DNA of 64,000 nucleotides, from the NCBI RefSeq assembly GCF_004379255.2, contig NC_056035.1:28535208-28599207 (forward strand), written 5' to 3'. Of this stretch, positions 35,967 to 60,214 are shown in pieces. The position numbers and the translations under genes were made by a program. Position 1 is the first letter of the stretch. The number at the start of each line of letters is the position of its first letter. The DNA is from Salvia splendens. Its lineage: Eukaryota; Streptophyta; Magnoliopsida; Lamiales; Lamiaceae. The notes under the pieces were generated by a model. The model was given only the letters and a program-made list of their open reading frames with translations, was not told the origin of the DNA and did no database searches.

Positions 35967-36184
35967 AAATAAAATAGTTCGATGTCTTTTTAGTTTTTGC
36001 TTTTAGTGTGAACTGCTCTTGTGAAACAACGTTTAACCTTCTTTCTTTTAATGAGGATTTGGATTTGATTTATATCCTATGTGTTGTATCTTGAACCACA
36101 CGAAGTTTTTCTTTTGAGAAATTTTTGAGAAGGTGGTAATTGTGGATGATATTTGTAGTAACACTTTATGGATATTGAATCAGA

Positions 36185-39100: not shown

Positions 39101-39943
39101 AGGAAGTCGCAATCTCAGCTGGCCACCTTTCTTACTATCGAGGAGAGTTTAATCCAAGAGTTCAGTAAGATGCGGTTGGAAGTAGTGAGAATGCCCGAGA
39201 CTGTGGAAGGAATAATAGCCACGTTGGTGATGGAACCCGACTTAAGAGCCAGAATTGTGGAAGCTCAACGGCGGGATACGTTACTAGAAAAGATTCGCTC
39301 AGAAGTGAGGGCGGGTGAACTCGGAAACTTTCACGAGGCAGCGGATAATGGTCTCACATACAAGGGAAGGTTGTGTGTGCCTAAGGATGAAGGCCTGAGG
39401 ATCGAAATCATGAGAGAAGCACATGAAACCCCATACGCTGCACACCCAGGAAGCACCAAGATGTATCAAGACTTGAAGAGGCAATTTTGGTGGAACGGTA
39501 TGAAAAAGCATGTTGCAGCTTTTGTGGAGAGATGCCTAGCATGTCAACAAGTAAAGGCGCTACACCAACGGCCCTATGGGAGATTGCAACCCCTTGAGAT
39601 TCCAGAATGGAAGTGGGAACATATTGCAATGGACTTTGTGACAGGACTGCCAAAATCCCAGCGAGGAAACACTGTGATTTGGGTGATTATAGATCGCCTC
39701 ACCAAATCTGCTCATTTTGTACCGGTTCGTGCTACCTATGGATCCAACCAGTTGGCTAAGATATATGTGCGGGAGATTATACGCTTGCATGGAGTACCAG
39801 CGACAATTACATCCGATCGCGATGCTAAATTTACTTCTAGATTTTGGACGAGCCTGCAGCGCGAGTTGGGGACTAAGTTGAATTTTAGTACTGCCTTCCA
39901 CCCACAACCGATGGGCAGTCAGAGAGAACGATTCAAGCCTTAG
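36185..39943 (+). CDS. gag-pol polyprotein of the chromovirus, cut short in integrase
   Basis: 1252 codons. A Pro-rich N-terminus (residues ~18-32) is followed by the Gag capsid region (~40-200), a CX2CX4HX4C zinc knuckle ([14 protein letters not shown], ~291-304), protease with DTGAS (~381), RT (~570-770, [16 protein letters not shown] ~716), RNase H (YTDAS ~863), and integrase. Integrase shows the HHCC zinc site (H1088, H1110, C1118, C1121) and the first two catalytic acidic residues (MDF ~1151, SDRDAKF ~1212). Around 39910, just after HPQ, the frame slips by one base and reaches a stop at 39943; the catalytic Glu and the C-terminus continue in the next frame. The slip lies beside a short A run and could be a sequencing error. 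Confidence 0.92.
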
Positions 39944-40671
39944 AGGATATGCTGCGAGCCGTGGTGCTAGATCGAGGTTGGGGTTGGGAAGAAGTGTTGC
40001 CATTGGTTGAGTTCGCGTACAATAATAGTTACCAAGCGACTATCAAGATGGCTCCATATGAGGCATTGTATGGAAAGAAGTGTAGATCGCCACTTTATTG
40101 GGATGAAGTGGGTGAGAGAAGAATTCTCGGACCAGACTCTGTAGAAGAGATGATAGAGATTGTTCGACAAATCCGTGGGAGGATCAAGGAGGCGCAGGAT
40201 CGACAGAAATCATACGCCGATGCTCGGAGGACCGATCTACAATTCGAATCTGGAGAGAAAGTTTTTCTGAAAGTTGCCCCTTCTAAAGGAATAACTCGAT
40301 TTGGAGTGAAAGGAAAGCTGAGACCCCGATTTATCGGACCGTATGAGATTTTGGATAGAGTCGGCGCGGTAGCATACAGATTGGCCCTACCACCAAGCTT
40401 TGGGAAGGTGCACAATGTCTTCCATGTGTCACAATTGAGGAAGTATGTGTTTGACCCCGCACACATAGTTCACCAAGAAGAGATGATGGTCCTAAATCCC
40501 GATCTAAGTTATGAGGAGAAGCCCGAGGCCATTTTGGATCGAAGGGTGCAAGAATTGAGGAATAAGTCAATTGTTTCGGTGAAAGTACGATGGAGGAATC
40601 ATGGAGTCGAAGAAGCAACATGGGAATTAGAAGATAAGATGAGAGAGAAGTTTCCAGAGCTGTTTGAGTGA
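39913..40671 (+). pseudogene. integrase C-terminus with GPY/F module and chromodomain (shifted frame)
   Basis: Continues pol in the frame two bases on; an ATG at 39949 is internal to the domain and probably not a true start. It shows the end of the catalytic core (FAYNNSYQATIKMAPYEALY), the GPY/F module (RPRFIGPYEILDRVG), the VHNVFHVSQLRKY motif and a C-terminal chromodomain (AILDRRVQELRNK ... VRWRNHGVEEATWE). Chromodomains direct chromovirus integration towards particular histone marks. The stop at 40669-40671 precedes the polypurine tract by 31 bases. Confidence 0.9.
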
Positions 40672-40702
40672 TCTAGGCAAATTTCGGGACGAAATTTTTT
40701 TT

Positions 40703-40715
40703 AAGGTGGGAGGAA
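40703..40715 (+). other. polypurine tract
   Basis: AAGGTGGGAGGAA directly before the TG of the 3' LTR. Confidence 0.88.
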
Positions 40716-41774
40716 TGTAATATCCGAAAAAAAAAATATTTTGAATATTGTTTTTATTAAGGGATGTTTCTTTTTGTGAATATCTTGTTGTGGATATGAT
40801 TTTATTTACCTAAGCAACATGTAATTGAAATAATTAATTAAGCTATGAATTAAAATCCTAATTAATAAATTAAACCTCTCTCTCCCTATTTTCGAAACCC
40901 CTCCCCCTCACCCCACTATTTTCTCAACCTCCCCACTCCCACATAACCGATACATTATCTCCTTTCCAATCACTCATCGGTTTCTCTCATCTCCCTCTCG
41001 CTTTTGTTCTCAACACCGGTAAGGTCTCTCTCTCTCTTCCTCCCTCTCGGTTCTCACCTTTCCCCCACTCACTCCCTCTCATTGATTTCTTGAATTCATC
41101 AAGGTATCACACTCTCGCGTACCGATTTGGAGTCGGAGTAGGGAAGGCTTTCGAACTACATTTGAACTCTTCGAGAAGGTAGTCCAAAACCCTATTTCCA
41201 TACCCGAACCACATGCATTTAGGACGTTTTGAATGTTTTAAATGCTGAATAGGTTTTGTGATCATGTGTTTATGTTGAGTATGTTTTCGGTGGTGACTGA
41301 CAGTGGGTTCCGACCCCTTTTTGACTGATCAAACGATCTCCTTTTGGTACGAAATTTTAACTGTGTAAACTTGGGTGTGTCTTCTGTGTGGTGTGTAAAT
41401 TTCAGCTTCTTTGGACGTCGGATGATTTTATAGTGATTTTTGTAAGTAAACTGCGCAGTTCTGCGAGATGTACGTTTCTGGGTGATGTGTTTTTGTGCAA
41501 TGGGTGTGAATCTGGGTGTTTTGATATTATGATGTATGTGGGTGTGTTTGGCCAAGGGATGGCTCGGAGGAATCAGCGTTTGGTTCGAGTGTTTTGTGTG
41601 TGTTGGCCGAGAGTTTTAGGGTTTGGCCTAGGGTGGTGTTGTGGAGAGTTTTGGAGGGTTGATCTCATGTTTTCGGGTGTGTTTTGGGATGTAGAATGTG
41701 TGTTGTGAATGTCGTATAAGGTTTGAGAATCGTTGGTTGGGGGAAAACTGGTGTGCACTTGATCGGACCAGCGG

Positions 41775-42045
41775 CCGAGACGCCGAGCCAGATGCCGAGC
41801 CAGATGCCGAGACAGGTGCCGAGCCAGTGCCGAGAGAGGTGTCGAGACGGGCGCCGAGCCAGATGCCGAGCCAGATGCCGAGACAGGTGCCGAGCCAGTG
41901 CCGAGACAGGTGCCGAGCCAGGGCCGAGCCAGACGCCGAGACATGTGCCGAGCCAGGCGGCCGAGACGGTCGGCCGAGGTGCCGAGCCAGGCAGCCGAGA
42001 CGGTCGGCCGAGGTGCCGAGCCAGGCCGAGACACCGAGCCTTTTC
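41775..42045 (+). repeat. GCCGAG-type minisatellite in the 3' LTR
   Basis: Same unit types as 33344-33665 with fewer copies, accounting for most of the length difference between the LTRs. Confidence 0.85.
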
Positions 42046-42827
42046 CGAACCTTTTCCGAGCCAAGTGAGCCGTTTGCACAAGGAGGGTATACCGGGAGTA
42101 CGAGTGTTTCGGGTGTGTGTCGTGTGCGCGTCGTGGGTGCGTGGTATGCGTGTCGGGTGCGTGCGTGGTGTGTTTCGGACGTGTGATTCTGTGTGCTTGA
42201 CTTATAGGATGTTGTTAAGTGTGTGTATGTGTAACGTGCTAGATATTGAAGTCATCCACGTAGAAAACATGCATTGTTGACTAAGTCTCGTCTTCCCTGA
42301 GTCTAATCATGATTCTCATTTATCTTTCAAAAAGGGTGAACTTTTGCGAGACAATTGTGGTTGAAGAAGGAAACTGTTTAAAAGCTAAGCAATTGAGGTG
42401 GGCTTTTCTACCCTACTATTTTGTGGGTTATCTTTAATACGGACGTTGTTCCGGAAATGTTTATGGAGATGAACTGTTTGTCTTGCCAACTGTTTTGTTT
42501 TGAAACCTATCTGAAGTGGTTTACCACATATGTTTAATCGAATTCGGGTCTGTTGGGCTGCGAACCCTCAGGCTAGTGTACACGAGATCGGGAGCCATCT
42601 GAGAGCAAGTTGGCCGGTCTAGTTGACCTGGGGTGTGGCCACGCCCCTTGTCACCCGTTGGATCAGATAGTGTATGATGGTGGGAATAAGGGTGGCAATA
42701 TCTGAAAATGACTGCGCAGTCGAATTTATGAAATATGTTTTAGTGTACTTGGGTTATTTTCTTTACACTTAAAACCCCAAGGTTACACTGTTATGGCATG
42801 ACAAACTATGATTTTGGCGTGTGTCCA

Positions 42828-42877
42828 CTGAGTGCAATAAGTACTCAGCCCTGCGTGTTGTTTTCTTAATGTGCAGG
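42828..42877 (+). other. paired stem-loop of the LTR (copy 4)
   Basis: Same arms and spacing as 34453-34502. Confidence 0.6.
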
Positions 42878-43207
42878 TTGAGCGACGATGGGATGACGGA
42901 TGTTGAGCAATTAAAGTCAAAATTGTGTTTTTACTTTGCCTTTTGGATGGTGTCGTGTCGTCATACCCGGCATTATCTATCTCTTGGTCTGTTCCGCTGT
43001 TTTGTAATCCGATACAATGTTTTCATTTAAACTCTGTTTACTTTAACTTTAGAAATGTCGCTACCGTACATTGTTTTGAAGTGAACTTCCTCTAATTAAA
43101 CGTTTTCGGGTCAAGTATTCTTGTTCTCCCCTTTCTTCCCCGCTTCTTTATTCCTCCCCTAGTCGCGGTCCACCGTACTTCCTATCCTTAGGAAATGCGG
43201 GCGTGAA

Positions 43208-43307: not shown

Positions 43308-44250
43308 ACGATTTTGCTATTTTTATATAGCAAGCGGCCATGGGGGGGGAGGACAATTTAGACACTAAGAATCACATAGACCAAGGACAGGCATGTTTCT
43401 ACACTAACTAAAATAATTAACTCTGAATATACCTCATCCTTATGAAAAGATGTGTACCCCCGCCAAGCAATTAGAGGAAATAACATCAACCATTTTTCAT
43501 CCCATGGGTATAGCAAGCAATTTTATGGCCATGGACATTCATTAAATAGAAGACAACTTCCATTCCTAAATAAAGTAAGATAAGTTCCAAAACATGTTTA
43601 GTCGATTCAATATAGATTACAGAGAACCCCTTTTTGGAAGACCTACCTTTCAACTCCTCTTCACGTCGTTGTCTATCCATCCTGCAAAACAATCAAAGAT
43701 GGTAGAACTAAATCAGTTGCAGTACTCCTCGCCTCTACACTAGACGTATAAGATGTTGAGTTGGAACATATACATGTTTCAATGTTACCAGATGCAACTA
43801 GCATGTTTTTAGCTTCATTCTTGAATCCTTCAGTTGTGGCAATTGCTATGACCTGCATAATTTTCACCAAAGAATGCCCCCTATTAAGATCTAACAAAAT
43901 AAACAAAACATAATGCCAACAGTAAATGAAGTAAAAGCATTCCATCCACCACGCCCTTAAAAGGATGATATCTTCCAAACCCTGGTTTGGCATTTGCAAT
44001 ATAAAAAAACACCCCGGTGTACCTACAAAAAGGAAAAAAGTAAATTATTTAATCAAATACATCTACAAGAACAACAGACTAAAATAAGTAAAAGAACAAA
44101 ATTTGTTTACCTGATAACCTTGACGAAACAGATCTACCAGATTCATAATTATCTGCAATGGATGTGGCACGAAAAAAATCAATATAATGATATGGAAAAG
44201 TGGAAAAACATAAATATTTTTTTTACTAGGAGATGAATGAGTTAAATGTA
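43308..44250 (-). other. tail of the chimeric gene region, not identified
   Basis: Minus-strand pieces with plausible splice sites: a segment reading VIAIATTEGFKNEAKNMLV (near 43850-43795) after a CAG acceptor, and a short MDRQRREEELK piece (near 43682-43650) before GTAGGT. They follow the MOR1-like exons in the same direction and could be further MOR1 or other exons, but I cannot match them to a family. Confidence 0.3.
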
Positions 44251-44254
44251 AGTA

Positions 44255-46290
44255 GCATAATACCTTGAAGAGCTCCATATGGCTTCAGTTGTTTGCTAAT
44301 AACAGCTAAAGCAAATGTTTGTATATATCTCAATTTTTGGGTACATATAAGGGAAGAGATATAAGATAGGTCTAGGCGCCACATAGCAGCTAAAAGAGTT
44401 GGCCAACATCAATCAAGTAACAAAAAATTTGGATGTTCATACCGTTTCTTGTCCATAAACCCTCTCAATATTTCATTAAGCATGCTTCAGCCGCTTTACA
44501 ACCATCTGCTTATTTATCCTGGAAAGGTAACCAAAAAATATCTAGAGACATAAGTTGATACACAACTACCTACAGAATAACACCTTGCATAATGAAAAAA
44601 CCATCATAGCAGATGCAGTGGGTTTGAGCAGCTTTATTTCATCAAGGAAACTCACCAATCCAGTAAGTTGTCTTCTTGATAGCCATTTAAAAAGATCCCT
44701 GCGCCCTTCTATGCCTATTTCAGCGTCTGAGAGAATAATATATGGTAGCTAAACGCTAAAGACATCAGCAAGCGTGAGGTTAACAATACTCAAAGCAGGA
44801 AGTCGAAAAACACTATTTTCTAAAATGACTACAGACCATTTTATCGAGATGAGCAGCACCAAGCATTGGTACTCTCATTGTACACTCAAGGCATTTCAAG
44901 GCATCTGAAAGAATGCCCTGCATGAGCCACATTCATGTAAATGATCAAGCCTCACAGGAGCTATGTACATGACAGAAGAGTTTGAATATTGGGATTTAAA
45001 AGTACAAATATTGTGTTTGACGTTTTCAAGATTATCTAAAGGATCCCAAGTATTTATAATATTGGGATTGTAACTCACATTTAGTTAGCGCAAGAGACTC
45101 TTAATAATAGTATAACTAATAGTATACGAGAGTACCTTGCCTGACTTCTCAACTGGCAGTCCATTGCAGTCGTAAGAGTACCGATTGTGGACAAAGTAGC
45201 AATAATAAAAAAATGTTGTTACTGTCGTGTGGACGCCCTTTTAGAGCTCCAAATAGATCTCCTAAAACAAGAAAGATAAAAGGGCATATCATGTAGATAA
45301 TTATATACTCCATATACAAAAGTTGATAGTTATTTCAAATTTTTCACTGAACGTACCAGTTCCAGCAGGCAGAATAGGTTTGTTCGCCTCTTCCAGAATT
45401 TTGGTCACACTTTCAATAGATTCCAAACGGACCTACACTGAAGATAAAGTCAGATTGACAGCATGCCCTCATAAATCATTCATAGATTTGATGATTAACA
45501 AACATATACTCCATTTAACCAACCTTCAAATCAGAACCCTCTAAGCCTTTTAACGGGGGGGGGGGGTAGTCTTTTCACTGATATCTTGACGTGGAAGACC
45601 ATCCATGCCAGTGATGCCACCACTCACCGCAGTTGATGTAGAATCAGTTACTTTATCAACCTTCCTAAAGCTGCAGATGCATGCAAAGGTAATATTTGTA
45701 AATTTGAACTGAAGAAAAAACATATCATAGGAAAAATGACAGTTACACACCCCAAAAAAATTAATATTGTCATACTCGGCGTCGAGAGTACTTAGTAAAG
45801 CAGGTTTATCATCGGACAGAAATCACTTTATATCTTCGAGAAGAGAAAAACACAGTTACTTCTTTTTCAAATTTGACTATTATGATTTCCATAAAACCTC
45901 CCAACACATCCCCAGATATGAAAGCTGAGTTTTAAAAAATGTATCCCCATAAGACAGAAATCCCTGTATATCTTCAAGAAGAGGAAAAAAACAGTTAATT
46001 CCTCTTCAGATTTGACTATTTTGATTTCAGTAAAACCACACTAATAAGCTCCCTCGCAACACATCCAGTGACTGAGTTTAAAAAATGTAACACCTGGACC
46101 AACAAACTGTTGCATTTCTAGATGTAGCTGCACTAGATTGTAAACCGACGTACTTGCATAAGTCAATTAAATCCTGGAAATGATTATCACGCATTTAAAA
46201 CCGATAAGTTTTGAGCACCTTCAGCTTAATATGAGAAGTACCAAAGTCATCCACTGCAGAAACCATCCATGATAGGCCTTCACTAAGAAC
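44255..46290 (-). pseudogene. MOR1/XMAP215-family TOG protein, internal exons, broken
   Basis: MOR1-family proteins are TOG-domain microtubule polymerases. Exons in MOR1 order on the minus strand: 46219-46290 (VLSEGLSWMVSAVDDFG), ~46103-46173 (DLIDLCKYVGLQSSAA), ~45750-45840 (FLSDDKPALLSTLDAEYD), 45524-45670 (SGGITGMDGLPRQDISEK), 45357-45432 (VRLESIESVTKILEEANK), ~45137-45261 (GDLFGALKGRPHDSN), 44837-44917 (GILSDALKCLE ... AAHLDKMV), ~44605-44755 (EGRRDLFKWLSRR, LLKPTASAMM), ~44440-44522 (KAAEACL) and a scrap near 44262-44290 (LKPYGALQG). Most have AG/GT borders. Breaks: TGA within the FLSDD exon, a 12-C run shifting frame at 45556-45567, a shift near 45140, and an internal loss at 44880. The N-terminal TOG exons and the C-terminal half are missing. 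Confidence 0.8.
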
Positions 46291-46313
46291 CTATGGAAAT
46301 ATCACAGTTATAT

Positions 46314-47110
46314 TCAAAAGAGAGAGACAAACAGACGAAGGTTTGAGCACCGGCACCTTCCCACATGGAAATATCTACATAGCTTTAAGCGCACCTCGGG
46401 TGAAAGAATATCATGCAACCATTTGTAGAGCTTCAATACATCTTTAATATTCATCAAGTGCCTGGTAATTCTGAAAGACCAGAGTGTGTATCTGCTCAAT
46501 TTGAACAGAAACTTCCCCCAGAAAACGGACCTGATAAGTAAAACAATCAAGACATTCAATCAGAAAGTGGTGCACAAAGTCAAGACATTCTGCTGTTGGT
46601 GTGGCGAAATCCATAACGTATGAAAGGTATCTAAACGATCGAAGAGTAAGAATGCGTTTTACAATAGTGGAAACATATATAGCCGTTCCAGGTAACCACA
46701 GCAATGCAAAATCATGATACCTGAGCTTTGTGTATGCATCTAAAACGCCAAATTCATCAACAAACCATGTAGCAACAACAAGTTTCTTTGCTGAAACTGT
46801 TGCCTCTCATCGCCAGTCTCCAAAACATAGTCGTAAGCTATATTTTCTACTACAGATGTATGTGCACTAGACATAACACATAGTTAGTCATGCCACTCTC
46901 GCCGAAGGATGGAATCTTGATTTTGTACGAAATAGGCGTTAAGCATGAACTATAAAACATCTGCATATATCTTGTAACTATATTCATCTGCATACCTTGC
47001 AACTACTTTCATCTGCAGTGGTTGAATATTTGATGTATAGCTGTATTTTTCCCAGCTTTTTCTTGCTCTGGTTCCCGAGATATAAAATACTGACAATGCT
47101 TAACCTGCAA
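46314..47110 (-). pseudogene. AT5G65440-like gene, 3'-most partial copy (unit 0)
   Basis: A diverged copy of exons found again in the three units upstream: DAYTKLR-type end near 46730, FRYLSYVMDFATPTAECLDF (about 46655-46590), VSVQIEQIHTLVFQNYQALD (about 46525-46450), and LYKWLHDILSPEVRLKLCRY (about 46430-46370). It lacks the GPATGLAAPALDP stretch present in units 2 and 3. It joins unit 1 at ~47110, where the sequence jumps from the INYST exon region to the intron before the next unit. The final exon is followed directly by the first MOR1-like exon at 46290. Confidence 0.6.
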
Positions 47111-49083
47111 ATTTAAAACGGGCCTGATCAGGAAAACAATCAAGACATTAAATTAGATACTATCATACAATAACCAGGAAATGTAAAAATGATAAGAAAA
47201 CGACAACTTGCCACATAACGACCTACCTCTTAGTGACTCAATGTGTGCTTACTTTTGTCTTTGATTACCACGGGCAGCAGAATGTCGTGCACCAAATCAA
47301 GATAATCTCCTGTTGCTGTGGAGATATCCATAACGTATGAAAGGTATCTAAAGATTCGAAAAGCAAGAATGCATTTAACAATTGTGGAAACATATATAGC
47401 CGTTCCAGGGTAACCAGCAATGCACATTCATGATACCTGAGCTTTGTGTATGCATCTAAAACTCCAGAAAGATGCAAATGAATCCACCAACCATTTCCAC
47501 GAACCATGTAGCAACAAGTTTCTGTGCTGAAACTGTTGGCCTTTCATCGCAGTCTCCAAAACACAGTCTTAATCGATAGTTTTGCTACAGATATGCACTG
47601 GACGTAACACATGTTAGTGATGCCACTTTAGCCGAAGGATGGAATCTTGATTTTGAACGAAATAGGCGCTAAGCATGACATATAAAACATCTGCATATAC
47701 CTTGTAACTATCTTTATCTGCAGTGGTTGAGTAGTTGATGTATAGCTGTATTTTCTCAGCTTTTTCATGCTCTTTTTCCCCGGATATAATACACTGACCA
47801 CGCTTCTTTCCCCTGCATTAAAACAAGCAGAAAAAATTTAACCCTTTCAGACACATAAAACAGATCTGTTTCAAAACACCAAAAACCAACATGAGGTCAA
47901 GATCAAGTACCGATTCATCAGAAATGTCAGCCACCTGAACAAGAAACATGCCCACAATATAATTCAGATTCAGATCATCTCCAAATCCACCTGGCAAGCT
48001 GCAGATCAAGAGCAGTAGATATTCACTTATTGATGATCTGCCAAACTTAAGAACTAGACGGAGAATGGGAAACAAAACATATAAAACACGAGCTTCACCA
48101 GGTCCCGGTTGCATTCCCAATGCATCCTCTTCGATCGAACTTTCAATCTCAACATACAAGAATATGATTCTGCAATTAAAAACAAGATTTGCAATCCGAG
48201 TAGAAGTTAGATTGAATGAGAAACAAGACTCCATAATTGATATATGAATGAATGTAAGAAACATGCATACCTTGCACCAATTCATAAGTTGATGCGCTTT
48301 ATGAGCATGGGTACTTCTTTCAAGTATCCATGAGTCCCAACAATTAAGTGTGCAACGCTTCTATGCAATAAAGAGAGGCCTATTACAATGTCAGATTTTT
48401 TTTATTTTTTTTTTCTCTTTTTTCATTTTTTTCCTTGTTTCTTTTTTTTTCTTTTTTTTGTTTCTTTTTGTTGGATGAAACAACCAATTTCACATTTGAT
48501 AACTTTGCTGAAATGTTTCCAGCTTCACCGTGGATGAAGGACTTTAAAGATGTAAACGTGAAACCAGTGGGTTGCTTCGTCCCCATTTTCACATTACGAA
48601 CTGAAAAATAATAGAAAAACTTTGTACAGTTAAATACAAGCCATGCTCAAGAAGCATAAACCAATTTCTTGTAATACCACATAGTCACCTGGACCTCTAA
48701 TCTTCCCGATGGTTTTCTTAGGACTTTACGTAAGCGCCTTCACCCACAAGTTCAGAATGATCTTTCCTCGTCAGCTTTCCTCTGATTTTAATAATATATT
48801 TCTTAACCTGCAAATTTAACTAAGGAAAGTTAATGTAACAGCAGATATACCCTTTTTAAATAACTTTCTTTTGTGCAAAAGAAACCAAATATGCTTTGGA
48901 AGCTAACTAATCAGCATATGCAGCAGAAAATTAAAAATAAAATCCAGAGATTATCTCACCCTAATACATCCCTCAGCAGTGAGCATTCATTTTCCAAAAG
49001 GGAGGAGCTCCATACAGCTCCTTGCCCACGAGTGGGGCATAGGCGGACAGATGCATCATAAGATAAAACAGCATACCAGTTGC
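47111..49083 (-). pseudogene. AT5G65440-like gene, tandem unit 1
   Basis: Exons in descending order: A 48960-49083 (YDASVRLC ... ENECSLL), B 48689-48807 (KDHSELVGEGAYVKS), C near 48480-48593 (TKQPTGFTFTSLK), D near 48090-48175 (SSIEEDALGMQPGPGE), then pieces reading QVADISDESV, INYSTTADKDSYK, HGSWKWLV and YLSYVMDISTATGDYLDL. The exon with PATGLAAPALDP is absent. Exon A is 124 bases here against 126 in the other units, having lost one A and one G from homopolymer runs. Homology is to the plant-specific AT4G24610/AT5G65440 pair, whose function is unknown. Confidence 0.6.
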
Positions 49084-49518
49084 CTAGACCACTGCATCGG
49101 ATTTAGATAATATACAAGTATTAGAAGATCTGCTTCCATGAAAAGAAGCTAAATGAGAACTATTAACTTCAAGATCTCTCATGTTCATCTGGCATAATGA
49201 ATCCCAAATTTCCTATTAGAATATCTCCTAGCATAAAAAATTGATAATGCTTTTTGCAACAATGTACTTATAGCTACGCAAAATCTAGAAGTGAAGAAAA
49301 AGATATTTTATTAATTCATCTGTCATCTCTGACATATTTCTTTGTGGAACAGTGGAATATAAAGTTTTTTACAACGGAGTTACTCATTACAAACAATTGA
49401 GATTCCGAGACATATTTTGATTCAATTGATCAATATCAGGTGTTAAAGAAGTAATTAATTGAAAAAAATCAAAATAAATATGCATGGTTGAGAGAAACAG
49501 ATTATGCTTCTAACTTGC

Positions 49519-49657
49519 CTCCAAAATAAATGAGGGAACATATTCCTCGTGAACCTTAGGTATGGTCGCTGTGTTACTTGTTTCAATACAGAATGTAACA
49601 CAGCTCAAGTCAACGACCTTACAAGAGGAACTTTGTTTTTCACTGCTACCTTCACAT
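49519..49657 (-). pseudogene. MOR1-like TOG exon H, copy in unit 2
   Basis: 139-base exon with AG acceptor. Reads VKVAVKNKVPLVRSLT, then, one base out of frame, VTFCIETSNTATIPKVHEEY and VPSFILE, matching an early MOR1 TOG repeat. The donor is GC (GGAG|GCAAG), whereas the copy at 52363 has GT. The shift sits at a short T run and is shared with the other copy. Confidence 0.75.
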
Positions 49658-49704
49658 CTGCAGAAAACTAATAATCAGTAAGATTAAAACTGTAGAAAGA
49701 CAAA

Positions 49705-51929
49705 CAGGCGACGGTTTGAGCACTGGCACCTTCCCACATGGAAATATCTACATAGCTTTAAGCGCACCTCGGGGAAAGGATATCATGCAACCATTTGTAG
49801 AGCTTCAAAGCTGGATCAAGTGCAGGTGCAGCCAATCCTGTTGCAGGTCCGAATACATCTTTAATACCCGACATCGATGATTCATCAAGTTACTTGAAAT
49901 TCTCCAAGACCAGAGTGAGTATCTGCTCAATTTGAACAGAAACAGAAACTTCTCCCAGAAAACCGGCCTGATCAGGAAAACAATCAAGACATTAAATTAG
50001 ATACTATCATACAATAACCAGGAAATGTAAAAATGATAACAAAACAACAATTTGCCACATAACGACCTACTCTTAGTGACTCAATGTGTGCTTACTTTTG
50101 TCTTTGATTACCACGGGCAGCAGAATGTCGTGCACCAAATCAAGATAATCTACTGTTGCTGTGGAGATATCCATAACGTATGAAAGGTATCTAAAAGATC
50201 GAAAAGCAAGAATGCATTTAACAATTGTGGAAACATATATAGCCGTTCCAGGTAACCAGCAATGCACATTCATGATACCTGAGCTTTGTGTATGCATCTA
50301 AAACTCCAGAAAAGATGCAAATGAATCCACCAACCATTTCCACGAACCATGTAGCAACAAGTTTCTGTGCTGAAACTGTTGGCCTTTCATCGCAGTCTCC
50401 AAAACACAGTCTTAGCGATAGTTTCTGCTACAGATATGCACTGGACGTAACACATAGTTAGTGATGCCACTTTAGCCGAAGGATGGAATCTTGATTTTGA
50501 ACGAAATAGGCGCTAAGCATGACATATAAACATCTGCATATACCTTGTAACTATCTTTATCTGCAGTGGTTTGAGTAGTTGATGTATAGCTGTATTTTTC
50601 TCAGCTTTTTCATGCTCTTTTCCCCGGATATAATACACTGACCACGCTTCTTCCCCTGCATTAAAACAAGCAGAAAAATTTAACCCTTTCAGACACATAA
50701 ACAGATCTGTTTCAAAACACCAAAAACCAAACATGAGGTCAAGATCAAGTACCGATTCATCAGAAATGTCAGCCACCTGAACAAGAACATGCCCACAATA
50801 TAATTCAGATTCAGATCATCTCCAAATCCACCTGGCAAGCTGCAGATCAAGAGCAGTATAATTCACTTATTGATGATCTGCCAAACTTAAGAACTAGACG
50901 GAGAATGGGAAACAAAACATATAAAACACGAGCTTCACCAGGTCCCGGTTGCATTCCCAATGCATCCTCTTCGATCGAACTTTTCAATCTCAACATACAA
51001 GAATATGATTCTGCAATTAAAAACAAGATTTGCAATCCGAGTAGAAGTTAGATTGAATGAGAAACAAGACTCCATATTGATATATGAATGAATGTAAGAA
51101 ACATGCATACCTTGCACCAATTCATAAGTTGATGCGCTTTATGAGCATGGGTACTTCTTTCAAGTATCCATGAGTCCCAACAATTAAGTGTGCAACGCTT
51201 CTATGCAATAAAGAGAGCCTCTTACAATGTCAGATTTTTTTTATTTTTTTTTTCTCTTTTTTCATTTTTTCCTTTTTTCTTTTTTTCTTTTTTTTCTTTT
51301 TTTTGTTTCTTTTTGTTGGATGAAACAACCAATTTCACATTTGATAACCTTTGCTGAAATGTTTCCAGCTTCACCGTGGATGAAGACTTTAAAGATGTAA
51401 ACGTGAAACCAGTGGGTTGCTTCGTCCCCATTTTCACATTACGAACTGAAAAATAATAGAAAAACTTTGTACAGTTAAATACAAGCCATGCTCAAGAAGC
51501 ATAAACCAATTTTCTTGTAATACCACATAGTCACCTGGACCTCTAATCTTCCCGATGGTTTCTTAGACTTTACGTAAGCGCCTTCACCCACAAGTTCAGA
51601 ATGATCTTTCCTCGTCAGCTTTTCCTCTGATTTTAATAATATATTTCTTAACCTGCAAATTTAACTAAGGAAAGTTAATGTAACAGCAGATATACCCTTT
51701 TAAATAACTTTCTTTGTGCAAAAGAAACCAAAATATGCTTTGGAAGCTAACTAATCAGCATATGTAGCAGAAAATTAAAAATAAAATCCAGAGATTATCT
51801 CACCCTAATACATCCCTCAGCAGTGAGCATTCATTTTCCAAAAAGGGAGGAGCTCCATACAGCTCCTTGCCCACGAGTGGGGGCATAGGCGGACAGATGC
51901 ATCATAAGATAAAACAGCATACCAGTTGC
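49705..51929 (-). pseudogene. AT5G65440-like gene, tandem unit 2
   Basis: Exons A 51804-51929 (GNWYAVLSYDASVRLC ... ENECSLLRDVLG), B 51535-51652 (ILLKSEEKLTRKDHSEL in frame with A across the splice), C near 51330-51447, D near 50930-51010, INYST piece near 50560, HGSWKWLV near 50310-50370, YLSYVMDISTATVDYLDL near 50115-50190, and G from 49967 down (VQIEQILTLVLENFK, TAA, LDESSMSGIKDVFGPATG). The in-frame TAA is at 49892-49890. One G of the B exon is missing compared with unit 3. The C exon runs into a T/C-rich tract that looks eroded. Confidence 0.65.
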
Positions 51930-52362
51930 CTAGACCACTGCATCGGATTTAGATAATATACAAGTATTAGAAGATCTGCTTCCATGAAAAGAAGCTAAAT
52001 GAGAACTATTAACTTCAAGATCTCTCATGTTCATCTGGCATAATGAATCCCAAATTTCCTATTAGAATATCTCCTAGCATAAAAATTGATAATGCTTTTT
52101 GCAACAATGTACTTATAGCTACACAAAATCTAGAAGTGAAGAAAAAGATATTTTATTAATTCATCTGTCATCTCTGACATATTTCTTGTGGAACAGTGGA
52201 ATATAAAGTTTTTTTACAACGGAGTTACTCATTACAAACAATTGAGATTCCGAGACATATTTTGATTCAATGATCAATATCAGGTGTTAAAGGAGTAATT
52301 GATTGAAAAAAATCAAAATAAATATGCATGGTTGAGAGAAACAGATTATGCTTCTAACTTAC

Positions 52363-52501
52363 CTCCAAAATAAATGAGGGAACATATTCCTCGTGAACCT
52401 TAGGTATGGTCGCTGTGTTACTTGTTTCAATACAGAATGTAACACAGCTCAAGTCAACGACCTTACAAGAGGAACTTTGTTTTTCACTGCTACCTTCACA
52501 T
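52363..52501 (-). pseudogene. MOR1-like TOG exon H, copy in unit 3
   Basis: Same 139-base exon as 49519-49657, 2844 bases away, with a standard GT donor. The T-run frameshift between RSLT and the VTFCIETSN part is shared, so it predates the duplication or reflects a common sequence problem. Confidence 0.78.
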
Positions 52502-52554
52502 CTGCAGAAAACTAATAATCAGTAAGATTAAAACTGTAGAAAGACAAACAGGCG

Positions 52555-54779
52555 ACGGTTTGAGCACCGGCACCTTCCCACATGGAAATATCTACATAGC
52601 TTTAAGCGCACCTCGGGGAAAGGATATCATGCAACCATTTGTAGAGCTTCAAAGCTGGATCAAGTGCAGGTGCAGCCAATCCTGTTGCAGGTCCGAATAC
52701 ATCTTTAATACCCGACATCGATGATTCATCAAGTTACTTGAAATTCTCCAAGACCAGAGTGAGTATCTGCTCAATTTGAACAGAAACAGAAACTTCTCCC
52801 AGAAAACCGGCCTGATCAGGAAAACAATCAAGACATTAAATTAGATACTATCATACAATAACCAGGAAATGTAAAAATGATAACAAAACAACAACTTGCC
52901 ACATAACGACCTACCTCTTAGTGACTCAATGTGTGCTTACTTTTGTCTTTGATTACCACGGGCAGCAGAATGTCGTGCACCAAATCAAGATAATCTACTG
53001 TTGCTGTGGAGATATCCATAACGTATGAAAGGTATCTAAAAGATCGAAAAGCAAGAATGCATTTAACAATTGTGGAAACATATATAGCCGTTCCAGGTAA
53101 CCAGCAATGCACATTCATGATACCTGAGCTTTGTGTATGCATCTAAAACTCCAGAAAAGATGCAAATGAATCCACCAACCATTTCCACGAACCATGTAGC
53201 AACAAGTTTCTGTGCTGAAACTGTTGGCCTTTCATCGCAGTCTCCAAAACACAGTCTTAAGCGATAGTTTCTGCTACAGATATGCACTGGACGTAACACA
53301 TAGTTAGTGATGCCACTTTAGCCGAAGGATGGAATCTTGATTTTGAACGAAATAGGCGCTAAGCATGACATATAAAACATCTGCATATACCTTGTAACTA
53401 TCTTTATCTGCAGTGGTTGAGTAGTTGATGTATAGCTGTATTTTTCTCAGCTTTTTCATGCTCTTTTTCCCCGGATATAATACACTGACCACGCTTCTTC
53501 CCCTGCATTAAAACAAGCAGAAAAATTTAACCCTTTCAGACACATAAACAGATCTGTTTCAAAACACCAAAAAACCAAACATGAGGTCAAGATCAAGTAC
53601 CGATTCATCAGAAATGTCAGCCACCTGAACAAGAACATGCCCACAATATAATTCAGATTCAGATCATCTCCAAATCCACCTGGCAAGCTGCAGATCAAGA
53701 GCAGTATAATTCACTTATTGATGATCTGCCAAACTTAAGAACTAGACGGAGAATGGGAAACAAAACATATAAAACACGAGCTTCACCAGGTCCCGGTTGC
53801 ATTCCCAATGCATCCTCTTCGATCGAACTTTTCAATCTCAACATACAAGAATATGATTCTGCAATTAAAAACAAGATTTGCAATCCGAGTAGAAGTTAGA
53901 TTGAATGAGAAACAAGACTCCATAATTGATATATGAATGAATGTAAGAAACATGCATACCTTGCACCAATTCATAAGTTGATGCGCTTTATGAGCATGGG
54001 TACTTCTTTCAAGTATCCATGAGTCCCAACAATTAAGTGTGCAACGCTTCTATGCAATAAAGAGAGCCTCTTACAATGTCAGATTTTTTTTATTTTTTTT
54101 TTCTCTTTTTTCATTTTTTCCTTTTTTCTTTTTTTCTTTTTTTTCTTTTTTTGTTTCTTTTTGTTGGATGAAACAACCAATTTCACATTTGATAACCTTT
54201 GCTGAAATGTTTCCAGCTTCACCGTGGATGAAGACTTTAAAGATGTAAACGTGAAACCAGTGGGTTGCTTCGTCCCCATTTTCACATTACGAACTGAAAA
54301 ATAATAGAAAAACTTTGTACAGTTAAATACAAGCCATGCTCAAGAAGCATAAACCAATTTTCTTGTAATACCACATAGTCACCTGGACCTCTAATCTTCC
54401 CGATGGTTTTCTTAGACTTTACGTAAGCGCCTTCACCCACAAGTTCAGAATGATCTTTCCTCGTCAGCTTTTCCTCTGATTTTAATAATATATTTCTTAA
54501 CCTGCAAATTTAACTAAGGAAAGTTAATGTAACAGCAGATATACCCTTTTAAATAACTTTCTTTTGTGCAAAAGAAACCAAAATATGCTTTGGAAGCTAA
54601 CTAATCAGCATATGCAGCAGAAAATTAAAAATAAAATCCAGAGATTATCTCACCCTAATACATCCCTCAGCAGTGAGCATTCATTTTCCAAAAAGGGAGG
54701 AGCTCCATACAGCTCCTTGCCCACGAGTGGGGGCATAGGCGGACAGATGCATCATAAGATAAAACAGCATACCAGTTGC
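52555..54779 (-). pseudogene. AT5G65440-like gene, tandem unit 3 (best preserved)
   Basis: Exon A 54654-54779 and B 54383-54501 join in frame (SLLRDVLG + LRNILLKSEEKL). B joins C (5' border 54293) in frame through IRGPVRNVKMGTKQPTGF. Later pieces: ESYSCMLRLKSSIEEDALGM near 53780-53860, KIQLYINYSTTADKDSYK near 53400-53450, NLLLHGSWKWLV near 53170-53220, LRYLSYVMDISTATVDY near 52960-53035, and G from 52811 (ending KLYKWLHDILSP). TAA at 52736-52734 breaks G exactly as in unit 2. Known homologues carry the same exon order. The Arabidopsis label pesticidal crystal cry8Ba protein for this family is a misnomer; it is not a toxin. Confidence 0.68.
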
Positions 54780-54937
54780 CTAGACCACTGCATCGGATTT
54801 AGATGACATAACAAGTATTAAAAGATCTGCTTCCATGAAAATAAGCTAAATGAGAACTATTAACTTCAAGATCTTTCATGTTTATCAGGCATAAAGAATC
54901 CCGAATTTCCTATGGGAATATCTCTTAGCAAGATTAC

Positions 54938-55190
54938 CTTGAATGAAATGTTGGATATTGACCGCTCAACGGATGAGAAGCTACAGCTGCATTCTTAAAA
55001 AACGTATCCAGCTTTTCTAGAAACTTCTCCAGAGGTCTCATACCCACCATCTAAATAACAGATATACCAAAAAAAGCTAAATTGGCAATTAAAAATAATA
55101 ATATTTAGAAGGAAAACCTTGAAATAATTTACCTTGGCAATATCCGCCAAAGCTGAGAATTGATCACTTAAATATCTTTCCAAATAAACT
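54938..55190 (-). pseudogene. MOR1-like TOG exons upstream of unit 3
   Basis: Two exons: one ending at 55133 with a GT donor (SDQFSALADIAK) and 54938-55050 with AG and GT borders (MVGMRPLEKFLEKLDTFFK). Together they match the MOR1 segment just after exon H in the normal protein, yet here they lie 5' of both H copies. After EKLD the sequence departs from MOR1 (FKNAAVASHPLSGQYPTFHS). Confidence 0.68.
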
Positions 55191-55336
55191 CGAAACACCA
55201 AACAAGATACTATGAACCTATCTCATGGTTTTCATATTTGGCTGCACGCTGGTGCTAGATGGATTAGCCCCTTTATTGTTCCGTTTCTCCACTGAAACGC
55301 TGTTGCTACTAGTGGTGTCCGGGGTGGGGGTGGAGT

Positions 55337-55636
55337 TCAGTTAGTGACAGATTCAGAAGACACCCTAGCAGAATCATGGTGCCCTACAACGACTCTATCA
55401 TTACAATTCCCAGGTGCATTGGCAAAATAAATGTGTCTTGCACCACCATTGGCCACTTTATCATCCCGCGGCGATGCCTTAGGGGAGTCGCGACCACCAT
55501 AGCCCCCACCCTCAGAATCAGAGGTGTCTATGTCCCAATCCGAGAGGTTCTCAATCATACGGTTAACAGAGGGCATACGTCCAGTGCGAAAGTTGGAAAT
55601 AGAGGACAACCCGAGGCTATTGCCCTCAGCCCCACC
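55337..55636 (-). pseudogene. N-terminal coding exon of the AT5G65440-like gene
   Basis: A CAG acceptor precedes 55636. The frame reads GLSSISNFRTGRMPSVNRM, then ENLSDWDIDTSDSEGGGYGG and SPKASPRDDKVANGGARH. The Ser/Asp-rich, FRTGR-containing composition fits the variable N-terminus of the family. It stays open to a TGA at 55339-55337, but a GT at about 55361 (GCTAGG|GTGTC) could be the real donor. An in-frame ATG exists at 55609. Confidence 0.45.
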
Positions 55637-55749
55637 ACTGAATCAGAATGAAGCTTGTTCCGTAGGAACTAGTTCTCCACCTATTCATAATATACCAAAT
55701 TCAAGATTAATGAATCACATAATGTATGAAGTCACAATGTAAACAAGAA

Positions 55750-56215
55750 ATTGACTAAAGAAATAAGATATCGACCTCAAGCCGGATTTTCTGCCCTCCG
55801 GCAGACTAGCAGCGGTGGCGGAGGCAGACCAGCGGTGGCAGCGAGGCATCCGACGCACAACGACACTTCCCAGACCTTTTCGACGACATTTCCAAACCCT
55901 TTTCATTTCTGAAACTTTTAGTAAAGATTTCAAGGTTTTTAAACTTTTTTGCAAATTAAAAGTGAAGCAACTTACCGAGCGTCGGCGGGGACAGCAGCGG
56001 TTACCAGCCGAAACAATAGCAGCAGCGGTGGTGTCACAGTAGGAAGGGTTGTCTGCGTCGAGGAAGAGAACTCCGGAGAATCGATAGCTAAGTAGTCCAA
56101 TTCTAGTTTAGAGTTTTTTTTCAATTTGGTGAACAGAAAGGGTGAGAAGCGAGGGAGAGAGAGAGAGAGGGGGGATCGGTGAGAAGCGATGGAGAGAGAG
56201 ATTCAAATTTGGGGG
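55750..56215 (-). promoter_or_regulatory. 5' UTR / first-exon region of the chimeric gene
   Basis: Two GC-richer stretches on the minus strand, ~56045-55975 ending CTCG|GTAAGTTG (a good donor) and ~55865-55790, separated by an AT-rich intron-like piece, with CT-rich microsatellite sequence upstream (56155-56205). This is the usual look of a plant 5' leader. No TATA box is assigned. Upstream DNA is LTR-like. Confidence 0.4.
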
Positions 56216-56234
56216 TGATTCAAATTTGGGAGTG

Positions 56235-57610
56235 ATTCTTTTCTTTTATTTATATACTGTAGGGCTTAGTTATATCTAGTGTTGGGCTAGTTTTACATTT
56301 ATTTAGGTTTTGGGCTTAGGTAAATAGGTAAAATATTTTGGGCCCATATTAAATTCTCTTACTCGGGATCGTATATTGTTATTTCGTTGTTTGGATTTCC
56401 ACGCAAGAAAGGGTGAAATATATTTATTTTTTAGTTCCCAATTTAATTTAGTTAATCCCTTAGCTAATTTATTTAATTCCCGAATTCATTCCGAGGAGGA
56501 TGAATAAGTACGAGACTAACGATACGAGTTTCAAGGACGTGAGCGGTCGGCCAGCGTCGCTTGTGATGCCTCGGCAACCGCAAATAATCGAAATTTATGA
56601 AGCCCAAGGAAAGAACAAAGAAAAGACGAGATCCAAAATTCTAAAGAAGAACGAGAATATAATTGAATTTAGGATTCATGCATTCAAAAATCATACATTA
56701 ATGTGTACCTTATGTGCTTTGCAAATGGGTTTCTTCCACACGCTAGTTAAGTTCGGAGGAGACATTCTTTTAAAGATGGAAATCCTAAGTGCTCGAGGTG
56801 AACTTTATTACCTAAACTCTTTTATTTTCAAAGTTATGAATGTGGTGCTATAAGGGGGTGGTCTGAATGTTATGTCATGTCGTATTCTTCTGTTTTGAAT
56901 TGCCTACGGGATAAAATCCTACTAGACTCTAATGGTTAACAAAATCGGGTCTAACTATGGGGTGATCCCTTACTCAGGCTAGTGTACATTGATGGGGATC
57001 GTGAGCCGTGTTTTGGGTCGGCCGATCTAGTGATCGAGTTTGTGGCCACATTCTCTTTTCATGAGATGATTAAGATATGGTATATGATGGATGATGATGA
57101 TGTTTGTATGTGCAGATACCTTTTACGATGAAAGAAATGATTTTGGTGTTTCTCGATATTATTAAAGTAAAACTCTATATTCACTCAACGATGGTTTGGC
57201 ATGACTTTATTTGATGAAAATATTTTTGGCATGAGTTGACTGAGTGCATCAAGTACTCAGCCCTGCATGTATTTTCCATACGTGCAGGTTGAGACATGAC
57301 GAGGACGGAGAACATTGAGCATTTGGAACGAAGGTCGTGTTCGATAAATATTTCAATAGCTATTTGTGTGACATAGTAGTAGTTAACTCTCAAATACTTC
57401 CGCGACTCTAAGTTTTAAACTCTTATCTTTTCTTAAATTGTTGGACTATTGTCGCTTCGTGATTTGAGACTCTGATTCAATATTAAGTTTCCCTTTTGAT
57501 TCAAATGTCGTGCCCTTTGATCATTTTCTCATTTCTTCCCCTGCTTCTTTATTCCCCCACTAGTCGCGATCAACTGAGCTTTTTTATCCTTAAAAAGTGT
57601 GGTCGTGACA
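56235..57610 (+). mobile_element. 5'-truncated LTR of the chromovirus-type family
   Basis: Ends GTGGTCGTGACA at 57610 after TTCTTCCCCTGCTTCTTTATTC and ACTAGTCGCGATCAAC, matching the LTR end at 34740-34834. It also carries CAGGCTAGTGTACA (near 56970) and the paired stem-loop (57240-57288). No TGTAA start is visible and no 5-bp duplication of AATAA was found, so about half of the LTR is missing. Left boundary approximate. The 117-codon frame at 56500-56853 lies within it and is not taken as a gene. Confidence 0.7.
57240..57288 (+). other. paired stem-loop of the LTR (copy 5)
   Basis: CTGAGT (57240-57245) pairs with ACTCAG (57255-57260); CCTGCATGTAT pairs with ATACGTGCAGG (57262-57288) with one mismatch, the longest second stem seen. 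Confidence 0.6.
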
Positions 57611-57976
57611 AATAATTTTAGTAGATTATATGATTCACATTATCAATAAAAGTGTATGTTTATATACTATTAGTGGATAGTTGAATCTACAAAATAATAC
57701 TAGTAAATTATTAATTCTAATCATATCTGGTGTAACTAAAATAAGAGTATTCACAATATGGGACTACAATCCCGCCCTATAAATTTGACCATTTCCATTT
57801 TTCTTCTACCACGTAAACATTTTATCTTCCCGCCAAAATATCCTCAATAGCACCATATAAATCCACTCATCCTCATTTTCCACATCATCACAATTTTTGT
57901 TTCTTTTAATTTTTTATGTTTATCAATTAAAGTACCATATTAAAATAAAATAAATTTAAGGAAGGATTAAAATATA

Positions 57977-59140
57977 CAGTAAAAGTCAAAACTGGTCCTG
58001 AACATATGCCCATTTTACGATTTTGGTCCTAAATTTATCTTTTGAATTTTTGAATCCTGAACATTTCAAATTGGATCACAATTGGTCCTGGACTAACTGT
58101 TCCGTTAGTTTTTAACGGTCAACGGATTTAATCCCGATTTTGACCAAATTAGATGATTAATTATAATTTTTTACTCCCTAATTATTTTAATAAATATTCA
58201 TTTAAAATATGAAATAAATAATATTTATTCTTTGCAGTATGCGACAGAATTCTTTGCGAAACTCGACTCGCAATTCTCGCCCTTCCAATTCCATTATTCT
58301 TTGCCACCTTCATCAACTACTCTCGCCGACTCCGACGCCGCTGTGTGCCTCTGATACCCCACCAATCTCGTCGATTCTGCCGAATTAGGCTCCCAGCTTG
58401 AAGAACACGTCCACTGCTGCTGGCTCCCGGCTATTGCTGCCGAAGGATTCCTGCTCTTCCAAGTCTTCGTCGTCTCCGGTGCCCGTCCTAACCCGTCACA
58501 TATTTGTGGAAGCTAGGCTGCATTAGGTCATCGCTCCCTACGATCTCCGATTCCAAAATTGGATCCTGCTTCGCCTTCCCCGCCTTGAGTTGCTCCGTCG
58601 TCGACAGATTCGATGTCGTGCTGAAGTTGAGATCGGCGACGGCTTCCAGGATGGAACACGCTTTGGTCACGCCCGGCGGCAGAGGAAACGACGCCGGTGG
58701 AACGTTGTTTTGGTGGAAATTGTGAACGACGCTCGCCATTTTTCTTGCCAATTGGCGCTCTCCGACTGCAATAGTTCGGCGAGCAGACCGGCGAGCGCCA
58801 AAAATCGGCGAGCCGGTGCGCTCGCCGCTATTGGAGATGCTCTAAGAGACTACCATGATATTTTTTAATGAGCAATTCTATTTTATTTTATTTTTTCATA
58901 TTTTAAATGAATATTAACAAAATAATTAAGGAAATAATTAAGGAATAAAAAATTATAGTAATTAATAGTCTAATTTGGTCAAAATTGGGATTTAACCCGT
59001 TGACCGTTAAAAACTAACGGAATAGTTAGTCCAGGACCAATTGTGAAGTGAATGTTCAGGATGCAAAAATTTAAAAGATAAAGTTTAGGACCAAAATCGT
59101 AAAATGGGCATATGTTCAGGACCAGTTTTGGCCTTTACTC
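57977..59140. mobile_element. Mutator-like element with ~250-bp TIRs and acquired sequence (Pack-MULE-like)
   Basis: Perfect 9-bp duplication TAAAATATA at 57968-57976 and 59141-59149. Inverted termini of ~250 bp, ~57977-58235 and ~58880-59140, share CATATGCCCATTTTACGATT and TTAGTTTTTAACGGTCAACG with few changes. The core (58240-58870) is GC-rich and coding-like, unlike the TIRs. No transposase is seen. Long TIRs with a 9-bp duplication define Mutator-like elements; a gene-like core makes it Pack-MULE-like. Confidence 0.82.
58488..58751 (-). pseudogene. coding-like sequence inside the Mutator-like element
   Basis: An 87-codon minus-strand frame, the core reading PPGVTKACSILEAVADLNFS, then DPILESEIVGSDDLMQPSFH, with a KYVTG end. 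It reads like a real plant protein rather than a chance frame, and may be an acquired exon. I do not recognise the family. The plus strand is also open because of GC content, which lowers confidence. Confidence 0.35.
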
Positions 59141-59149
59141 TAAAATATA

Positions 59150-60214
59150 TATATCATTGAGAAAAAGAGCTACAACACAAAAAAAACATCAAAAAAATAC
59201 TTTACCAGAGGCAGAGTTCTCTTGTTTAAAGATCGGGACCAACCTTTTAGTCTATTTAAGGAGTCGTGTGAGCTGGGATTTTGAGCTCTTGTCCTCTGCC
59301 GAGGTGAACAACTTGATGGTGTGGAACAGTTCACTCCAGATTTCAACAAAATCTTCCACCATTTTCATGCGATTCTTCAAACGATTCTGCAATTCCTTCC
59401 ATGAATGTGAAGAAATTCTGATTATTGGTTGATCTTGATTTGGAGCAGATTACTTCACGAATTCCATATGTAATTGTGTGAGCGTATTGTTAATTTAAAT
59501 CCATGAGTTTCGTGAATTTCATTATGAAAGTCGTGATGTGTAATTGAACTCCATGAGTTTTGATATGTAATTGAACTCAGTGAATTTGATTAGTAATTGA
59601 ACTCCCCGATTTGTAGCAGTTTACTTCGTATTTTTCTCTTTGATTTCTATGAATCTCTTCTTGCTTCTTCCTTTTTTGCTGTTGATTTCATAAATTTCGT
59701 TGTTAATTTCGTTGTTGGTTTCAATTTTAGTTCGCAAATTGTTTGCAGTGTTATTCATTGATTATTGCAGTGTTATCATTACCATATTGCAGTTTACATA
59801 TTATTTTAATAATTTTTGTTCCTGATGTAGTTTAATGAAACGCTTGTAGACCACTCTATTTGTTTCACTCTATTAATTTAATAATTTCACACCACAGTAG
59901 GATTGATTACTAATTTTATACTATTGTTCTCAGGTTGCATTCCATTTCCGTAATTAGTGTTTGTTGACGATAACAATTTTGTTTGTGTCGAGATTGCAGT
60001 ACACCTCTATATGAGTTGCAGTGCACCCAATAACTAATTTTTGTATAACTTTGTGACGTATTCCTTAGCTAGATTTAATCTTAAGCATGCAAATATTTTA
60101 TAAGTAAAAGACATCAAAACAGTTATGGAAAAAAAAATCAATTCAAATTACGTCACCAACATTGTCTATACCAAAACAAAACCACTATGTTTGTCTAATT
60201 AGTGAAGGAGTTAT
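59150..60214. other. intergenic, no gene seen
   Basis: T-rich sequence with repeated TAATTGAACTC and GTGAATTTC motifs around 59460-59620. The 106-codon frame across 59112-59432 starts inside the transposon TIR and is not supported. Confidence 0.5.

Follow-up and report, generated by a model that had tools for sequence, protein, structure and literature searches.

Interleaved MOR1 and AT5G65440-like exons in Salvia splendens: a probable dead array derived from a gene fusion

In a stretch of 64,000 nucleotides from Salvia splendens (C4:28535208-28599207; the whole of this stretch is called the window), exons of two unrelated genes alternate on the minus strand between 55.7 and 43.3 kb. One gene, denoted M, is MOR1, a TOG-domain protein. 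The other, denoted A, is assigned to the AT4G24610/AT5G65440 family, a label taken from an earlier reader of this DNA and backed by a single source name, 'like AT4G24610' (P0178). The exons are truly interleaved, and this is not due to misassembly. Most probably (about 0.85), this is a dead chimeric gene array that arose from an A::MOR1 fusion by tandem duplication, deletions and block copying. The genome searched is that of S. splendens (806 Mb, 1,162 contigs).

Organization of the array

The layout was obtained by tblastn of two S. splendens proteins against the window, P0010 (SASPL_143688) giving the residue numbers of A and P0127 (MOR1-like X1) those of M. Along the minus strand the order is A3-142, M463-489, A220-693, M407-452, A239-693, M407-452, A239-620, an older A486-693 and M734-1095. 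An earlier note on this DNA had described such an interleaved order, which these same-species proteins reproduce at the same positions. The parts are as follows.

55663-56611, minus: 5' leader common to the chimeric loci; reads like a promoter, a 5' untranslated exon and an intron
55221-55662, minus: A exon 1, residues 3-142, in more than one reading frame (tblastn with P0010)
55133-55159, minus: end of the MOR1 exon preceding VGMRPLE, approximately residues 463-474, joined to A intron 1 (J1; alignment and our own reading)
55006-55050, minus: MOR1 exon 475-489 (VGMRPLE), truncated (tblastn and alignment to the C17 MOR1)
54937-54996, minus: A220-238, joined within the exon to MOR1 489 with ~9 bases between (J2; tblastn and alignment)
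52080-54930, minus: tandem unit copy 1, A239-693 exons and introns, then MOR1 407-452 (52502-52366)
49234-52079, minus: tandem unit copy 2, A239-693, then MOR1 407-452 (49658-49522)
47112-49233, minus: tandem unit copy 3, truncated, A239-620
46303-47101, minus: A486-693, an older and gapped fragment with ~80% identity to the young copies (self-comparison and tblastn)
44097-46302, minus: MOR1 run, residues 734-1095, degenerate; meets A intron sequence at ~46302 (J6)
43308-44096, minus: tail matching neither MOR1 nor A (tblastn), partly inside gene model SASPL_111985
43208-43307, no strand: assembly gap of 100 N at the lower end of the array

The tblastn rows for A lie at 54996-52549 (A220-705), 51939-49705 (A239-705), 49093-47212 (A239-620) and 47101-46368 (A486-693), matches beyond residue ~693 (to 705) being intron read-through. 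Those for M lie at 52502-52378 and 49658-49534 (both M407-448) and at 46296-44097 (M734-1095); a further row spans M461-489 at 55089-55006, of which only M475-489 (55050-55006) is reliable. The VGMRPLE exon is fused to A in mid-exon. Assignment of this exon and of the exon called H in the earlier note to the A gene was considered and rejected: tblastn with the parent proteins places both in MOR1 (H at 407-452, VGMRPLE at 475-489), and the note's identification thereby passed the test that it had set for itself.

Self-comparison of the window gives 2.75 copies of a unit of ~2,845 bases, 98.3% identical over 4,995 aligned columns; copies of this unit are also found at sister loci, which supports the tandem amplification suggested earlier. 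Of protein P0005 (gene model SASPL_111985), 98% is matched by the window locus, with 100% identity in many exons. Pfam gave no hit above the curated cut-off for ten window pieces and was uninformative for P0005, P0007 and P0010; the UniRef name 'Pesticidal crystal cry8Ba protein' attached to the A family was judged spurious. In the leader, TATAAATA (56254-56247) and GGGCCCA (56345-56339) were spotted by eye and are presumably promoter motifs.

Breakpoints and assembly

The window array (C4a) has a sister array, C4b (C4:30.82-30.84M), 2.24 Mb away, which matches window positions 43308-60329 at 99.2% and is free of gaps over 17 kb. The breakpoints J1-J6 were searched for in 15 sequence sets, and none of them occurs in the four sets that are MOR1 stretches without A (C17, C18, C7 and C8:19.28M). 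J1 is present in C4a, C4b, C9a, C22 and C170, and in a shorter form in the alignment with C8:18.29M; J2 (M489/A220) in seven loci (C4a, C4b, C9a, C22, C170, C8:18.29M and C19:13.80M); and J3, in its window form, twice each in C4a and C4b and once in C22, with C8 and C478 aligning partially at 76-79%. J4 was counted twice in C4a, twice in C4b, three times in C22, nine times in the C9a stretch (two loci) and four times each in C9b and C170. J5 is confined to C4a and C4b, and J6 is found in C4a, C4b, C22, C9 (twice), C170, C1160 and C478, the C1160 and C478 stretches being short and holding one array end each. C9b lacks J1, J2 and J6, its head going directly to M407; C8:18.29M and C19:13.80M lack J4 and J6 and, in the junction search, J1.

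J1, J2, J4 and J6 are seen again, with 91-100% identity, in C22, C9 and C170, and so are not assembly errors. The MOR1 run has at least 60 match rows in the genome, eight of which (the window included) span the full run at 93-100%, and the finding is therefore not due to chance. Misassembly, a concern raised in the earlier note, would mean that repeats had been collapsed or misjoined; this is extremely improbable. It could appeal to the 100-N gap at the lower array end, to the 46 of 50 one-base gaps between units that sit in homopolymer runs, like uncorrected long-read error, and to the thought that C4a and C4b could be two haplotypes laid out on one chromosome. Against it stand the recurrent junctions, the gap-free C4b copy and the divergence between two groups of arrays, an A group (C4, C22) and a B group (C9, C170), which differ by ~3.4% in the MOR1 part (C4a-C9a, 3.4%) and so are not copies of one read set. 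An artefact is thus refuted for J1, J2, J4 and J6, but not for J5, for the number of units or for C4a and C4b as two loci. Beside the gap point, C4b carries ~3.5 kb that is absent from the window; the window's tail there (43308-44096, ~790 bases) is also present at the sister loci.

The founding junction and a proposed history

At C8:18.29M and C19:13.80M an A exon continues to approximately residue 738 (751 in P0012) and passes directly into a MOR1 intron, followed by exon 407. This A738/M-intron junction was aligned to both parents, its MOR1 intron being alignable to C17, and by our own reading of the alignment at most 1-2 bases are shared at the switch, on both sides. That an A exon meets a MOR1 intron with hardly any sequence in common is as expected of illegitimate end-joining, in which unrelated sequences are united without a long shared stretch. 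The junction occurs 23 times in C9, C22, C170, C8, C19, C1160 and C478, and in none of the four MOR1 stretches without A, the parental A stretch lying outside that search set. Its full form is absent from the window and C4b, which carry a shortened form that is also found once in C22; in the window and C4b, A exon 694-738 appears on our reading to have been secondarily deleted between two TCTTTC repeats. The head-to-tail units of the arrays include the junction, as expected of a chimeric cluster. Introns are present and align to the parent, the MOR1 intron right up to a breakpoint, so the arrays are not processed pseudogenes or retrocopies; the earlier note's view of the array as genomic DNA holds.

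We propose that an A exon was joined at ~738 to the MOR1 intron just before exon 407 by illegitimate end-joining. The segment from A220 to M489 would then have been duplicated in tandem, creating the mid-exon M489/A220 junction, and a deletion in the first unit from A143 to M462 would have left A1-142, M463-489 and A220 onwards in succession. The remaining junctions of the alternating pattern would stem from further deletions (M453 to A238; M407 to M733), so that a single fusion, a single tandem duplication and a small number of deletions would suffice. Arrays that differ in unit number do occur at about a dozen places, and where flanks were read they had been copied along. We infer the duplications and deletions from the shared junctions. 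MOR1 407-452, 452-474 and 475-489 are consecutive exons, and C19:13.80M keeps M413-452 and M452-489 adjacent, between A736 and A220; such neighbouring MOR1 exons at this position are what the model predicts.

Two other starting points were considered and rejected. C8:18.29M is not an un-interleaved ancestor, as its alignment shows a MOR1 piece between A142 and A220; and an ancestral fusion in frame was set aside since, on our reading, C8 is in frame across the junction and C19 is one base off there.

Parent genes and leader

Apparently intact parents, which the earlier note had proposed to look for, exist elsewhere in the genome. Those of MOR1 are on C17 (P0127) and C18 (SASPL_146436), of which parts were read (407-452 and 475-1243 on C17; 546-1176 on C18), and a second MOR1 gene is on C7. 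The A parents are on C16 (P0010), in two inverted copies, and on C15, and match the window unit at 85-89%; several parental A rows carry stops, which probably represent intron sequence. The two C16 genes are a very similar inverted pair ~65 kb apart, at 22.140-22.146M (plus) and 22.211-22.216M (minus). Further MOR1 fragments lie at C8:19.28-19.55M, C6:22.28-22.67M, C12:17.3-17.84M and C21:12.91-12.92M, mostly 76-84% identical to the window MOR1 run; C8:19.28M mixes MOR1 262-370, 821-1247 and 1515-1662, several fragments lying close together. MOR1 seems to have been amplified piecemeal more than once.

The leader (window 55230-57000) is matched over its full length at C4:30.83M, C9 (twice) and C170, in two pieces at C22, and up to 56557 at C19:10.86M and C697. 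At C8:18.29M it is collinear to 56161 and again over 56235-56611.

Distribution, flanks and the question of transposon capture

Fetched sequence identifies chimeric loci on C4 (two), C22, C9 (three), C170, C1160, C478, C19:13.80M and C8:18.29M, and search rows alone add C19:10.83-10.86M and C697; the small contigs could be second copies of placed loci. C4a, C4b, C22, C9a and C170 agree in their overall order, although single exons are missing in some units; C9b has a variant order, and for C9c no head was found. The A239-283 exon is present three times in C4a, three times in C4b, four times in C22, six times in C9a and five times in C170.

Where flanks were read, the copied blocks measure 17 kb or more and lie beside satellite. 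On the left, C4b and C22 share 5.6 kb at 98.8% and the same AC-rich satellite, with related repeats at C9a; on the right, C9a and C170 share 11.6 kb at 98.1%. Block identity between groups is ~89-97%. The blocks end on the right at window position 56557 (C19:10.86M, C697), 58726 (C9a, C170) or ~60.2 kb (C22, C4b). Long blocks that include non-genic flanks thus have counterparts of at least 90% identity in other parts of the genome, and we read the spread as segmental duplication, one of the two routes that the earlier note had put forward.

The other route, capture by a transposon, has found no support so far. A Helitron, Pack-MULE or Pack-CACTA element would have captured parts of both genes and carried the chimera to new places, which we consider unlikely. 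Captured fragments can keep their introns and a single orientation, and here several fragments in one orientation, with introns kept, occupy many genomic places. That such elements capture fragments of host genes and spread them is well documented (PMC13317346). However, the window self-comparison, which covered repeats of at least 100 bases (E up to 1e-10), shows no pair of them on the two sides of the array, and in particular no inverted pair, the lower end being cut by the gap and the block ends varying. The copied blocks include flanks and run to satellite on the left, and their varying right ends are not the fixed end of an element, although an older element inside the blocks would not show in such ends. 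Helitrons end in 5' TC and 3' CTRR with a hairpin and insert at AT.

Other repeats were noted around the array. AC-rich satellite with a period of ~265 bases lies on both sides (window 25496-32290 and 60294-62317) and at the sister arrays (C4:30.811-30.816M and C22:11.588-11.593M). A long terminal repeat (LTR) retrotransposon, of Ty3/gypsy type by our reading, occupies window 32291-43206; its LTRs are 97.6% identical, and a long gag-pol frame lies at 36179-39943. As the contig ends at the 3' LTR beside the 100-N gap, the element may not truly adjoin the array. Approximately 54 copies of a 99-base tandem repeat with strong G skew fill 16206-21397, and a 358-residue open frame (21797-22873, minus) resembles, again by our reading, a reverse transcriptase/RNase H region, either from a retroelement or from an endogenous pararetrovirus. 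An inverted repeat pair (57975-58224 and 58885-59142; 265 columns, 85%, ~660 bases apart), perhaps a small foldback element, lies near the point where the C9b matches break.

Divergence and age

In the MOR1-part tree (rooted by us on the C7 MOR1), the 10 loci included form one clade. Over all sites of this part, C17 and C18 differ by 3.8%, close to the ~3.4% between the A and B groups, and the chimeras differ from both MOR1 genes by ~14%; at intron sites the distances are 5.1% (C17-C18), 15.4% (C4a-C17), 13.3% (C19-C17) and 19.9% (C7-C17). For the last two genome duplications of S. splendens, synonymous divergence (Ks) peaks of 0.08 and 0.26 are given in the genome paper (PMC8408255). C17/C18 and C7 are probably products of these two duplications; the chimera lineage would then have left MOR1 after the split from C7 and before that of C17 and C18, and the A and B groups would represent a homoeologous split. 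Within the window, copies 1 and 2 differ at 7 of ~2,700 sites beyond the first 140 bases of copy 1, and the unit has evidently been re-amplified very recently.

Exon constraint

With exon limits set by us from tblastn matches, exons and introns of the MOR1 part diverge alike between arrays (3.1 and 3.7%, respectively, between the two main groups): C4a-C9a, 29/920 exon and 44/1223 intron sites (p = 0.63); C22-C170, 29/946 and 45/1223 (p = 0.48); and C22-C478, 33/942 and 34/1248 (p = 0.32). In the parental control C17-C18 the counts are 22/964 against 60/1170 (2.3 against 5.1%; p = 0.0006), and in C17-C7 75/964 against 219/1101 (p = 1e-15). Comparisons of a chimera with C17 gave 112/905 and 165/1075 for C4a (p = 0.059) and 140/923 and 137/1032 for C19 (p = 0.24), and for C19-C4a exons were the higher (144/876 against 111/1138; p = 1e-5). 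In the A part, compared without a parental control, C4a-C9a gave 54/1156 and 42/894 (4.7% each; p = 1) and three more pairs between the groups gave p = 0.45-0.83; within groups, the values were 11/1183 and 15/902 for C9a-C170 (p = 0.16) and 12/1162 and 7/916 for C4a-C22 (p = 0.64).

Exon 620-685 contains a TAA stop in 16 of 17 exact-pattern copies from six stretches, the remaining copy having TTA, and the C8 copy has stops in several exons. Most frameshifts are not counted as biology because of the homopolymer gaps described above. An apparently strong exon constraint between tandem units (p = 2.8e-5) was discarded, as 12 differences clustered at the start of copy 1 (its first ~130 bases) account for most of it. 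Equal divergence of exons and introns between the main groups suggests that the arrays evolve as pseudogenes, and they look like neutral ones.

A working fusion gene, in which the A promoter would drive an A-MOR1 protein or a regulatory RNA, is by comparison very unlikely. The promoter-like leader, the seven gene models built over these loci and the fewer exon than intron differences among the window's young units speak for it, and a short N-terminal product or an RNA role would be compatible with these tests; exons no more conserved than introns between groups, the near-universal TAA and the stops of the C8 copy speak against it. A long shot is that arrays transcribed from the leader might act in trans, small RNAs or antisense RNA from the tens of MOR1 and A segments tuning the intact genes; if true, fusion of two genes in a polyploid would have given rise to a natural silencing locus.

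Several observations weigh against the history of fusion, duplication and decay proposed here. The order of fusion before duplication is a parsimony argument: in the simplest locus read, C8:18.29M, MOR1 sequence already separates A142 from A220 and the first-unit deletion is present, and no un-interleaved ancestor was found among the loci read. The MOR1 donor may itself have been an earlier MOR1 duplicate. Over all sites the C7-C17 distance (14%) is no larger than that of chimera and C17 (14%), only intron sites separating the two, and the MOR1-only fragment array C8:19.28M branches with the chimeras, so that the lineage split sets a maximum age for the fusion. At the parental A genes (C15/C16) the leader match stops at ~55713; the leader possibly comes from a third source, or a junction was missed. 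Among the window's three units, exons do differ less than introns (p = 0.055, 0.028 and 0.005 with the clustered end removed), in a comparison with small counts and some sites in A-rich or adjacent runs.

Comparison with known systems

The combination of end-joining fusion and tandem amplification is already known, for example from the maize P1-wr cluster with its p2/p1 chimeras, where the fusion is ascribed to non-homologous end-joining by Goettel and Messing (2009; PMC2686159). As described there, P1-wr is likewise a head-to-tail tandem array in a former allotetraploid; unlike it (two p genes of one Myb kind, expressed), the Salvia array joins unrelated genes, looks dead and has been copied further, to other chromosomes. 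The arrays resemble Helitron, Pack-MULE and Pack-CACTA captures, as portrayed in PMC13317346, in having unrelated gene fragments side by side in many copies; they differ in that no element ends of 100 bases or more were found, and in their large blocks with flanking satellite and internal tandem units. Literature searches under four of the seven SASPL gene names gave nothing on these loci and only a passing mention of AT5G65440, and MOR1 with Salvia gave only unrelated work. Primates have mosaic segmental duplications built from gene fragments. The Salvia arrays are similar as mosaics of gene pieces spread in large duplicated blocks, and differ in being from a plant, smaller and internally tandem-amplified.

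As a rearrangement of a plant genome, the case is clear yet ordinary. Seven S. splendens gene models have been built on these loci, one of them named Cytoskeleton-associated protein 5 in UniRef, and gene models on such arrays can distort gene-family counts. With its junctions still readable, the array offers a well-preserved example of the way in which two unrelated genes can become interleaved through fusion, tandem duplication, deletion and block duplication combined.

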